Below, piece by piece: positions 13,037-15,398 of a stretch of DNA of 19,418 nt. The notes under the pieces were generated by a model that was given only the letters and a program-made list of their open reading frames with translations, did no database searches and was not told the DNA's origin. Source of the stretch: a bacterium (lineage in GTDB: Bacteria > Planctomycetota > J058 > JAJDCP01); assembly GCA_030428695.1 (NCBI GenBank), contig JAUIEM010000172.1, positions 1-19,418 of the forward strand, read 5' to 3'. Position numbers and translations under genes: made by a program. The first letter of the stretch is position 1. The number at the start of each line of letters is the position of its first letter.

Positions 13037-14122
13037 TCAACGACCCGGGGCCGAAGCGGCGGCGGGCCGCGGCCCGATGTAGCGCGCCCGGGGGCGGATC
13101 AGGCGACCGCTGGCGGCCTGCTCGAGGATGTGGGCGTTCCAGCCGAGCAGGCGCCCGAAGGCGAACACCGGGGTGAACAGCTCGCGCCCGAGGCCGACCG
13201 CTTCGAGCAGCAGCGCGGTGAAGAACTCGACGTTGGTGAACAGCTCCCGGCCCGGCTTGTGCGCGGCCAGGGCCTCGAGGGCAGCGCGCTCGACCGCGAG
13301 GGCGAGCGCGAGCCGGGGACCGTCGCCCGCGAGCGCGGTGAAGGCCCCGCGCAGCACGTCCGCCCGCGGGTCGCGCACCTTGTACACGCGATGGCCGAAG
13401 CCCATCAGCCTGCGCCCGGCCGCCAGCTCGGCCGCGACCCAGGCCACCGCGTGGGGCGGGCTGCCAACCGCGTCGAGCATGTCGAGCACCGGCCCGGGTG
13501 CCCCGCCGTGCAGCGGGCCCTTCAGCGCGCACAGGGCGCCGACGCAGGCCGAGATCGGGTCCGAGCGGGTCGACGCGATCACCCGGGCCGCGAAGGTCGA
13601 TGCGCACATGCCGTGCTCGGCGACCGTCACGAGGTAGGTCTCCAGGCCGCGCGCGGCCTCGGCGCTCGGCGCCGTCCCGCGCAGCATGCGCAGGAAGTCG
13701 GCGGCCTGCCCGAGCGCCGGGTCCGGCGCGATGGGGCGCGCGCCGGCACGGACCCGCTCCTGGGCGGCCAGCAAGACCGGCAGGGCGCCACACAGCCAGA
13801 CGTGCGGGCGGAGCGAGGGGTGCGGGCCGAGGGCGCTCAGGCCCAGCCGCAGCCCGTCGACCGCGGGCAGCGCCGCGGCGAGCGGGGCGACCTCGCAGGC
13901 GCGGGGAAAGGCCTCCGAGCGGGCGCCCGCGAAGTCGGCGCGGAGCGTAGCGGCGTCGGCAGCGGGGTCGAGGTCCTGCCACAGATGCGCGGCCATGCCG
14001 GCGTAGCCCAGCCCGGCGAGCTCGGCGAGGGGGCGGCCGCGCAGCAGCAACGCGCCGCGCTCGCCGTCGACTTCGCACAGGGTGGTCTCCGCCGCGATCA
14101 CGCCTTCCAGTCCAATCGTCAT
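13037..14122 (-). CDS. Citrate synthase-family protein (361 aa)
   Basis: This is a cytoplasmic citrate synthase homologue, a fold that condenses acetyl-CoA (or propionyl-CoA) with oxaloacetate. Family landmarks are VAEHGMCASTFAARVIAST (H170), KGPLHGGAP (H205), MGFGHRVYKVRDPR (H244) and FTNVEFF (E299), then FGRLLGWNAHILEQ and GRLIRPRARYIGP. The three catalytic positions are therefore His, His and Glu; canonical enzymes have Asp at the third. I recall NVEF-type sequences among short actinobacterial-type citrate/methylcitrate synthases, so Glu may be normal for the subgroup. The shorter length (361 versus about 427) fits the type I/short-form group. ATG 14122 has GGGAGAGGA upstream. The frame continues to 14266, but that part crosses the divergent promoter region. 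It is divergent from a second citrate synthase and upstream of the Fur gene. Citrate versus methylcitrate synthesis is not decided. Confidence 0.92.
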   Translation of the reverse strand: MTIGLEGVIAAETTLCEVDGERGALLLRGRPLAELAGLGYAGMAAHLWQDLDPAADAATLRADFAGARSEAFPRACEVAPLAAALPAVDGLRLGLSALGPHPSLRPHVWLCGALPVLLAAQERVRAGARPIAPDPALGQAADFLRMLRGTAPSAEAARGLETYLVTVAEHGMCASTFAARVIASTRSDPISACVGALCALKGPLHGGAPGPVLDMLDAVGSPPHAVAWVAAELAAGRRLMGFGHRVYKVRDPRADVLRGAFTALAGDGPRLALALAVERAALEALAAHKPGRELFTNVEFFTALLLEAVGLGRELFTPVFAFGRLLGWNAHILEQAASGRLIRPRARYIGPRPAAASAPGR

Positions 14123-14173
14123 AACATCCTCTCCCGATGGGGGTCTGATGGAAGCTTGACGAGCAGCCGACAA

Positions 14174-14206
14174 GTTGTCAACATTGATCGATAGATCAAC
14201 ATGTTG
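14174..14206. promoter_or_regulatory. Cluster of overlapping palindromes between the two citrate synthase genes
   Basis: Three dyads overlap in 33 bp: GTTG-T-CAAC (14174-14182), TTGATC-GATA-GATCAA (14184-14199, perfect) and CAACATGTTG (14197-14206, perfect). They reuse the same CAACA/TTGATC words. The last one runs into the ribosome site of the + strand citrate synthase. A weak + promoter, TTGACG (14156-14161), 17 bp, CAACAT (14179-14184), overlaps the cluster. The site is AT-rich compared with its surroundings. An operator bound by the HTH-citrate synthase itself is the obvious candidate role. Confidence 0.55.
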
Positions 14207-14216
14207 GAGGAAGCCC

Positions 14217-15398
14217 GTGGCCGACGACCTGCTCTCCGCCCGCGAGGCCGCCGCGCTCCTGAACATCCAGGTGCAGACCTTGTACGCCTACGTCAGCCGG
14301 GGCTGGCTCCGCTCCCATCCGTCGAGCGACGCGCGGCGCAAGCTGTACCGGCGCGACGAGCTCGAGGCGTTGCGCGCCCGCAAAGAGCTGCGCCGGAATC
14401 CGGGCAAAGCCGTGCGCGAGGCGCTGCACTGGGGGGCCCCCGTGCTCGACTCCGCGATCTCCTGCATCGCCGAGGGACGCCTGTACTACCGCGGGCACGA
14501 CGCCGTCGAGCTCGCCCGCTCGCGGCGCTTCGAGGCGGTGGTCGGGCTGCTCTGGAACGGGGCGCTCGGGCCGCCTCCCGCCCCGCAGCCGCTCGAGCTG
14601 CCCGCCTTCGCCGCGGCGCTGGCCGAGCTGCCTCCGCTTCCCCGCCTGCAGAGCCTGCTCCCCTGGCACGCCCAGCGCGATCCCGCCCGCTTCGACCGGC
14701 GGCCGGACGCCGTGCGCAGCTGCGGCGGGCGCATCCTCGACCTCGCCGTCGAGGTCATCAGCGGGCGCCCGCGGGGAACTGCCGTCGCGGCGCAGCTCGC
14801 CGGCGAGCGCGGGAATGCGGTAGCGCGCCTGCTCGACGCCGCCCTGATCCTGTGCGCCGACCACGAGCTGAACGTGTCCGCCTTCACCGCGCGCTGCGTC
14901 GCCTCCGCGGACTCCAGCCCCTACGACGCCGTGCTCGCGGCCCTCGCCGCCCTGCGCGGCCCGCGCCACGGCGGACACACCGCCCGGGTAGAGGCGCTGT
15001 TCGACGAGGCGACGGGCGGTCGCGACGCGGTCCGCGCCCGGCTCGAGCGGGGGGACGAGCTGCCCGGCTTCGGCCATCGCCTCTACCCCGGCGGCGACCC
15101 CCGCGGCCGGACGCTTCTCCAGCTGCTCGCCGAGGCCGGCCCGCACCCGGCCCTCGACACCTCCGACGCCCTGCGGGCTTCCGCCAGGGAGCGCAGGGGC
15201 GTGGAGCCGGCGATCGACTTCGCGCTCGTCGCGCTGCGGCGGGTCCTCGGCCTGCCGGAAGGGTCGGCGCTCGCCCTGTTCGCCCTCGGCCGCCTGGTCG
15301 GCTGGATCGGCCACATCATCGAGCAGTACGGCGAGCCGATGATCCGGCCCCGCGCCCGCTACCGGGGTCGTCCACCGGCTTCCGCGGGCGGGCGTTGA
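14217..15398 (+). CDS. Citrate synthase-family protein with N-terminal MerR/excisionase-type HTH
   Basis: This 393-aa protein begins with a winged helix-turn-helix of the MerR/excisionase type (4-52: LLSAREAAALLNIQVQTLYAY, then GWLRS and a basic wing ending RRKLYRRDELEALRAR). A linker leads to a complete citrate synthase-like domain (about 70-385). Landmarks there are ADHELNVSAFTARCVAS (H216), LRGPRHGGHTA (H251), GFGHRLYPGGDPRG (H287) and EPAIDFALVAL (D334), then GWIGHIIEQ and MIRPRARYRG. All three catalytic positions (H251, H287, D334) are kept, so it may still be an enzyme, though HGG is preceded by Arg (PRHGG). The GTG at 14217 follows GGAGGA by 6 bases; the frame-shifted ATG at 14201 is not used. 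HTH-citrate synthases are known as a family in proteobacteria, but to my knowledge their role is little studied. It is divergent from the first citrate synthase. Confidence 0.9.
   Translation: MADDLLSAREAAALLNIQVQTLYAYVSRGWLRSHPSSDARRKLYRRDELEALRARKELRRNPGKAVREALHWGAPVLDSAISCIAEGRLYYRGHDAVELARSRRFEAVVGLLWNGALGPPPAPQPLELPAFAAALAELPPLPRLQSLLPWHAQRDPARFDRRPDAVRSCGGRILDLAVEVISGRPRGTAVAAQLAGERGNAVARLLDAALILCADHELNVSAFTARCVASADSSPYDAVLAALAALRGPRHGGHTARVEALFDEATGGRDAVRARLERGDELPGFGHRLYPGGDPRGRTLLQLLAEAGPHPALDTSDALRASARERRGVEPAIDFALVALRRVLGLPEGSALALFALGRLVGWIGHIIEQYGEPMIRPRARYRGRPPASAGGR

Follow-up and report, generated by a model that had tools for sequence, protein, structure and literature searches.

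The window, by which we mean the whole 19,418-nt stretch of DNA analyzed here, encodes a citrate synthase fused to a DNA-binding HTH domain (HTH-CS) that is very probably a dedicated gene switch, in which an old enzyme serves as the metabolite sensor. On sequence grounds, we consider it highly likely that HTH-CS is a DNA-binding regulator of its neighbor, a plain citrate synthase (CS), and likely that it is a local, autoregulating transcription factor with the citrate synthase domain as its sensor and repression as its most likely mode of action. The two genes are divergent and lie back to back, with a gap of 94 nt between their starts (14123–14216). The features of the locus are as follows:

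13037–14122, minus strand: CS gene, a PRK12350-type citrate synthase and likely target (Pfam and NF model scores).
14176–14181, minus strand: TTGACA, the predicted −35 of the CS promoter, which overlaps the operator's outer half-site (family-wide −10 enrichment, spacer 17).
14178–14199, plus strand: putative operator TCAACATTGATCGATAGATCAA, 22-nt class (family motif, kept in loci of 13 phyla).
14206–14210, plus strand: GGAGG, ribosome-binding site of HTH-CS (direct reading).
14217–15398, plus strand: HTH-CS fusion gene, proposed regulator, 393 amino acids, GTG start (ORF and Pfam; AlphaFold2 mean pLDDT 86.4).
14229–14381, plus strand: HTH_17 domain, residues 5–55, with the predicted recognition helix TLYAYVSRG at residues 21–29 (PF12728, AlphaFold2 secondary structure, conservation in 222 sequences).
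14454–15371, plus strand: citrate synthase domain of HTH-CS, about residues 80–385 (residue conservation, AlphaFold2 model).

A divergent pair of citrate synthases, one carrying a DNA-binding domain, had been described in the first-pass annotation, and its coordinates are correct: both proteins match PF00285, and one of them also matches HTH_17. They are also distinct proteins, as had been proposed, matching each other at 87–88 bits vs 770 and 852 bits to themselves. We chose the GTG at 14217 as the HTH-CS start from the GGAGG at 14206–14210 and from relatives; the mechanical ORF begins at 14175. The CS gene is complete and scores 303.3 bits against PF00285 and 360.5 bits against NF009005/PRK12350 (cutoff 332), with citrate synthase 1 of B. 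subtilis (PDB: 2c6x, E 3.8e-76) as its nearest PDB entry. Where the catalytic Asp is expected, CS has Glu299, and Glu occupies this position in 55/55 relatives compared. The nearest relatives found by protein search were P0001 (59%) and P0122 (66%), which are probably on one contig, as each is recorded with a longest contig of 62,447 bases.

Residues 5–55 of HTH-CS match HTH_17 (PF12728) at 29.6 bits (cutoff 27). Assignment to the MerR family was dropped, because the MerR_1 model (PF13411) scores 20.6 bits, under its cutoff of 21.6, and HTH_17 fits better. The predicted recognition helix TLYAYVSRG is nearly invariant across 222 HTH-CS sequences (120 from a protein search, the window protein and 101 from loci, related sequences included), with Y23, S27, and R28 kept in 220 of them and gaps in the other 2. 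Loss of this helix in homologs, which the first-pass annotation had raised, is therefore not the case. The AlphaFold2 model is confident for both domains (mean pLDDT 86.4, pTM 0.77), while the linker between them is loose, with pLDDT below 50 at residues 68–78.

Comparison of the gaps at HTH-CS loci revealed the putative operator, whose family site reads TCAAYnTTGATt-n4/5-AATCAA. Forty sites share the consensus TCAAYnTTGATt-n4-AATCAATaTat, and 36 more carry one extra base, the latter all from Pseudomonadota except L015. The 94-nt gap of the window holds one match to the family motif, without mismatch (TCAACATTGATCGATAGATCAA, 14178–14199), whereas 0 of 200 shuffles of the window matched even at two mismatches. 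A general repeat finder reported no inverted repeat of at least 8 in the gap; it missed the operator because the arms are short (TTGATC/GATCAA).

The loci compared came from a genome scan, of which we used the best 80 of 590 confirmed stretches. Among these 80 and the window, the operator is present at 77 of 81 HTH-CS loci. The pattern TCAAnnTTGAT-n(5-9)-TCAA falls within −400 to +150 of the HTH-CS ORF start at 72 of the 81; further loci with the motif are L055 and L059, where the ORF start was mis-called, L003 and L005, where the site is beside CS and a PALP-type gene lies between site and HTH-CS, and L047, where the site is reversed. Among the misses, L011 is one base off, L064 is degenerate, and the upstream region of L030 runs off the contig; at L004 HTH-CS is present and no operator was found. 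Two sites occur at L019, and the gaps of L002, L050, and L070 each contain an additional match in reversed orientation. Over 815 kb, ten Markov shuffles yielded 0, 0, 0, 0, 1, 0, 0, 1, 0, and 0 matches. The named HTH-CS loci cover 13 phyla, each with at least one locus carrying the motif, so that the earlier statement that HTH-citrate synthases exist in proteobacteria holds, but the family is not confined there.

The operator is also rare within genomes. The strict pattern, which was defined after viewing the 81 loci, occurs in 37 of 40 scanned genomes, these being genomes of such loci; it amounts to 46 sites, with exactly one site in 31 of the 40, and a reversed-pattern control in the same genomes gave 0 matches. 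Going by coordinates, the HTH-CS site itself accounts for 38 of the 46 sites, spread over 36 genomes. Of the eight sites elsewhere, one lies before acnD (L102) and another (L101, Pyxidicoccus) some 20 nt upstream of the start codon of an acyl-CoA dehydrogenase-like gene, which scores below every equivalog cutoff and has its ribosome-binding site between operator and start. Around L103–L107, strict sites away from HTH-CS, no citrate synthase was found within 12–13 kb.

The half-sites TTGAT/ATCAA resemble an FNR box, which has the form TTGAT-N4-ATCAA, and another regulator, for example of the FNR/CRP type, might bind the motif while HTH-CS is an enzyme with a vestigial HTH. We regard this as very unlikely. 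All 81 matches are 22 or 23 nt long (N6 or N7), although the pattern permitted N4 to N8, and L187 has N8; none has N4. The single strict match in 31 of 40 genomes is unlike an FNR regulon, and a vestigial HTH would hardly stay near-invariant across 222 proteins.

Later samples comprised a pattern scan and a protein search in the class of L051 (Reyranella, Alphaproteobacteria), a scan of Actinomycetota, and a scan of the genus of G009. An even sample of 289 genomes of the L051 class had the pattern in 41 genomes (43 sites; reversed control 3), and of 30 sites read, 16 adjoin HTH-CS and 14 have no HTH-CS within 1.5 kb. A looser pattern, applied to 110 genomes of Actinomycetota (the phylum of L007), was found in 15 genomes (17 sites; reversed control 2), with 6 of 15 loci adjoining HTH-CS and 9 of 15 lacking it within 1.5 kb. 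The sites without HTH-CS nearby indicate that the bare pattern also has chance matches. When 115 genomes of the L051 class were instead searched by protein (E ≤ 1e-50), blind to the operator, 10 carried HTH-CS, the query's own genome included; 8 of these have the strict operator, L187 has one extra spacer base (N8), and L186 is degenerate.

To describe the gene across the gap, we classified partners by their best match among seven query proteins. At the best 80 of 590 loci, the partner is a citrate synthase, with the CS of the window as its best match, in 39, a CoA-transferase III in 22 (21 tallied plus L059, with its mis-called ORF start), an HMGL-like enzyme in 5, and prpB-prpC in 2; the remaining 12 have none, another gene, or a contig edge. 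The citrate synthase partners are divergent within 450 nt in 34 of the 39 cases, divergent but more distant in L001, L003, L005, and L026, and in tandem in L047. Conserved linkage, suggested earlier as a point to check, was observed with a citrate synthase in 39 of these 80 loci and with other enzymes in 29 more. Several partners pass curated cutoffs (in parentheses): PrpB and PrpC of L074 at 527 (353) and 733 (550), AcnD of L102 at 1793 (1420), and the GltA-type citrate synthase of L185 at 673 with TIGR01798 (485). L143 and L152, from Actinomycetota, have an HMGL-like partner. Re-citrate synthases or enzymes of the homocitrate synthase type are candidates for the HMGL-like partners; those scanned fall below every curated cutoff shown.

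When the partner labels are mapped onto a tree of 102 HTH-CS sequences, 20 changes are required (minimum 5; shuffled mean 44.3). This is a quick tree, in which 38 of 99 inner branches are open and L143 and L152 were labeled 'none'. Partners are therefore clustered, yet they have been swapped repeatedly. The operator is kept while the gene across the site differs by lineage, being a citrate synthase, GltA, prpB-prpC, an HMGL-like condensing enzyme, or a CoA-transferase. The upstream neighbors of L004, L037, L052, L056, L062, L063, L186, and L190, together with some second neighbors, have no common theme.

Methylcitrate genes provide a case of a likely target away from the HTH-CS gene. In the genus of G009 (the genome of L060, Pseudoxanthomonas sp. 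GM95), the operator is present in 24 of 26 genomes, with 0 matches in the reversed control. All 29 sites could be assigned (29/29): 24 lie between prpB and HTH-CS and 5 before acnD, the latter in 5 of the 26 genomes, all of which also carry the prpB|HTH-CS site. The hexamers after the site are near-identical at prpB and acnD, reading TTGATC-N17-CAGATT, with a few CACATT or CAAATT. The second operator copy before acnD indicates that the regulon in this genus is the methylcitrate cycle. No finding speaks more strongly for a regulatory operator, as opposed to a mere mark of the HTH-CS gene, than this unlinked copy before another enzyme of that pathway.

We then related the operator to promoter elements. 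Read in the direction of the target gene, most citrate synthase loci have TTGACA as the outer half-site, and this half is likely the −35 box of the target promoter. A good −10 (score at least 3.6) follows at spacer 16–18 toward the target in 36 of 76 sites, whereas nine equally wide control windows gave 4, 1, 1, 1, 2, 0, 2, 2, and 2, and the mean −10 score by exact offset toward the target peaks at 17. By class, the fraction with a −10 at spacer 17 is 0.76 for CoA-transferase (21 rows), 0.28 for citrate synthase (40 rows), and 0 for both HMGL (4 rows) and Prp (2 rows). CoA-transferase loci, mainly from closely related Paraburkholderia, contribute half of the 36 good −10 boxes. The CS promoter of the window has a perfect −35 and a weak −10, CAAGCT (14153–14158). 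With part of the motif a likely −35 box, the whole could be merely a conserved bidirectional promoter, a reading we hold to be extremely unlikely: taken whole, the core TTGATt-n4/5-AATCAA corresponds to no pair of sigma-70 elements, and neither its rarity in genomes nor its recurrence before acnD would be expected of a mere promoter.

The polarity of the operator tracks the target and not HTH-CS. At L047, where CS is downstream on the same strand, the intergenic site is turned round, and the sites before acnD and before the acyl-CoA dehydrogenase-like gene of L101 have the same polarity toward their own genes. The placement of the operator over a likely −35 box and a core promoter, and in L101 just before the start codon, argues for repression, which we judge to be the rather more probable action of HTH-CS. 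Toward HTH-CS, a TATA-like hexamer (score at least 3) directly follows the site in 0.50 of 40 citrate synthase and 0.48 of 21 CoA-transferase rows. This would suit a MerR-like activator, with the operator in a long spacer (19–22 bp) of the HTH-CS promoter and binding remodeling that promoter, and the MerR_1 score of 20.6 bits, although below the cutoff of 21.6, points the same way. Such activation nevertheless appears quite unlikely, as the TTGTCA −35 is not conserved in the Paraburkholderia sites, the 2 Prp rows have no hexamer, and in the window the ribosome-binding site sits where transcription from that promoter would start.

The citrate synthase part of HTH-CS is divergent, scoring 209.2 bits against PF00285 (cutoff 27), and a Foldseek search with the model returned methylcitrate synthases as all ten best PDB matches (3hwk, E 3.5e-16). 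The catalytic residues H251, H287, and D334, already pointed out in the first-pass annotation, are present and are kept in 221, 219, and 220 of 222 sequences, and the pocket residues H216, H251, H287, R296, D334, R359, and R377 in 219–222 of 222; these include the catalytic His/His/Asp and the oxaloacetate-binding His/Arg residues. Pro291, placed via the GHxxYx-x-DPR stretch, occupies what we take to be the position of R324 of pig citrate synthase, a basic CoA-contact residue. HTH-CS proteins have Pro here in 204 of 222 and Arg in 6 of 222, while paired citrate synthases have Lys or Arg in 53 of 55. The next basic position is hydrophobic or Thr in most of the 222 and Arg in the window protein. 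The active-site His numbering of the pig enzyme is given in a passage of PMC4524684. Since the dicarboxylate pocket is intact but the CoA site is altered, the ligand is more likely to be oxaloacetate, citrate, or methylcitrate than an acyl-CoA. Judged from these residues, the chances that the ligand is of the citrate type are about even, and the CoA-transferase partner does not obviously fit such a ligand.

These residues also bear on whether HTH-CS is a true trigger enzyme, an active (methyl)citrate synthase and a regulator at once. The catalytic His/His/Asp, kept in 219–221 of 222, and the ten methylcitrate synthase fold matches are in keeping with this possibility. The Pro at the CoA-contact position in 204 of 222 and the mostly hydrophobic or Thr residues at the next position (Arg in the window) speak against it, and we consider it unlikely. 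Caulobacter crescentus citB/citC (CCNA_03757/03758) likewise form a pair of extra citrate synthase genes, with neighboring locus tags; according to PMC7083601, CitB is active and complements E. coli gltA, and CitC does not complement it. This too would argue against activity if CitC is an HTH-CS; the relevant passages describe neither a DNA-binding domain nor regulation of the pair. In 15 of 15 genomes searched, another citrate synthase outscores HTH-CS, so the HTH-CS module looks accessory.

From this pattern, we infer binding by HTH-CS itself, the regulatory sign, and the ligand. HTH-CS would act as a one-component factor that binds the 22/23-nt operator in the divergent gap and thereby controls both its own expression and that of the gene opposite, here CS. 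Closure of the citrate synthase fold by oxaloacetate, citrate, or 2-methylcitrate would then relieve (or tighten) repression. The first-pass annotation had proposed that the fused protein is a trigger enzyme that senses a metabolite and controls the pair. Control is strongly supported by the linkage, the helix, the cross-phylum operator that is usually single per genome, and the target swaps, whereas the trigger enzyme part is somewhat disfavored by the Pro in 204 of 222, which also makes acyl-CoA a less likely signal. As for the proposed feedback at the entry of the TCA or methylcitrate cycle, the role would not be confined to TCA entry: the targets in the G009 genus are methylcitrate-cycle genes, and those elsewhere include an HMGL-like enzyme or a CoA-transferase. 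For the cross-phylum family, it is an evenly balanced possibility that a duplicate of the controlled enzyme became a sensor of the product or substrate of (methyl)citrate synthesis, with one operator rewired among GltA, a second citrate synthase, the methylcitrate cycle, and HMGL-like enzymes.

Several known systems share parts of this arrangement. In B. subtilis, the LysR-type protein CitR is the dedicated divergent regulator of the minor citrate synthase citA. The window likewise pairs a divergent putative regulator with a citrate synthase, except that this regulator belongs to the citrate synthase family itself; 2c6x, the PDB entry closest to the window CS, comes from the same species as CitR-citA. 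PutA, BirA, and MocR/PdxR combine a DNA-binding domain with an enzyme fold used as sensor, and we know of no citrate synthase member among enzyme-derived regulators. PrpR-type regulators of the methylcitrate cycle share the targets prpBC/acnD with HTH-CS of the G009 genus but belong to other protein families. In Streptomyces coelicolor, the putative citrate synthases SCO5831/SCO5832 (citA3/citA4) share a common intergenic region with a predicted and tested MtrA site; in PMC12323332 they are presented as two enzymes under MtrA. Abundance data for SCO5831 appear in PMC9739823.

Most listed plasmid-borne HTH-CS proteins bear the NCBI name 'citrate synthase family protein'. On the At plasmid of Agrobacterium fabrum C58, ATU_RS25370 (HTH-CS) is back to back with ATU_RS25365 (citrate synthase), and the operator lies between the CS start and the HTH, within the annotated 5′ part of ATU_RS25370, whose annotated start is probably too far upstream. 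Among the matches listed from open-licence literature, no regulatory function was given to a citrate synthase with a DNA-binding domain and the term 'citrate synthase family protein' was not found; subscription papers, which were outside this scope, may contain a description. Under its annotated name the family is known; what appears to be new is the operator and its conservation across phyla, together with the target swaps and the methylcitrate regulon.

If HTH-CS is a regulator, a large family annotated at present as 'citrate synthase' or 'citrate synthase family protein' would gain a function: of 7999 scored candidates, 6456 reach E ≤ 0.001, with the HTH confirmed for only part of them. Such a role would also account for the extra citrate synthase pair in many genomes and offer a natural sensor of citrate, oxaloacetate, or methylcitrate. 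Given the specificity of the operator, more targets can be suggested from sequence, with care in AT-rich genomes.

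The partner gene, which lies across the proposed operator from the gene for HTH-CS (the HTH_17–citrate synthase fusion), differs among the relatives. The partner is a CoA-transferase family III protein at L029 (3449-4843) and at 21 more loci among the best 80 HTH-CS loci of 590 confirmed stretches, in Paraburkholderia, Herbaspirillum, Azospirillum and their kin. This partner carries an extra N-terminal part, and the L029 protein is 464 aa long. A GltA-type citrate synthase (L185:2786-4174) is divergent to HTH-CS in one genome of the same class as the Reyranella locus L051, Alphaproteobacteria. 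The plain citrate synthase of the window (13037-14122, minus strand) has Glu299 at the expected catalytic Asp position, as do 55 of the 55 relatives compared.

The remaining genes considered in the window are as follows.

5472-6212, response regulator with a Trans_reg_C domain
6289-7377, S4/PseudoU_synth_2 protein
7236-8906, aromatic amino acid lyase
11173-12483, Porin_O_P porin
12598-12996, Fur-family regulator
15452-16135, QueC
16128-16748, PduO-type cobalamin adenosyltransferase

No tie between the citrate synthase/HTH-CS pair and these seven neighbors is evident.

In L003 (3979-4941) and L005, a PALP-type gene, closest in L003 to threonine dehydratases, sits between the putative operator and HTH-CS. 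Because this gene intervenes, operator and regulator gene are separated, while still forming one divergent unit. Matches to the operator motif also occur away from HTH-CS. In Pyxidicoccus, a perfect site (L101:5406-5427) precedes an acyl-CoA dehydrogenase-like gene; the HTH-CS locus itself has only a degenerate site. L103, L104, L105, L106 and L107 are extra matches within genomes of HTH-CS loci.

At L011, L012, L031, L036, L044 and the Actinomycetota loci L143 and L152, an HMGL-like condensing enzyme of the homocitrate/isopropylmalate synthase family replaces the citrate synthase partner. Among the HMGL-like partners that were scanned, no score reached any of the cutoffs shown. The HMGL-like partners are possibly Re-citrate synthases.
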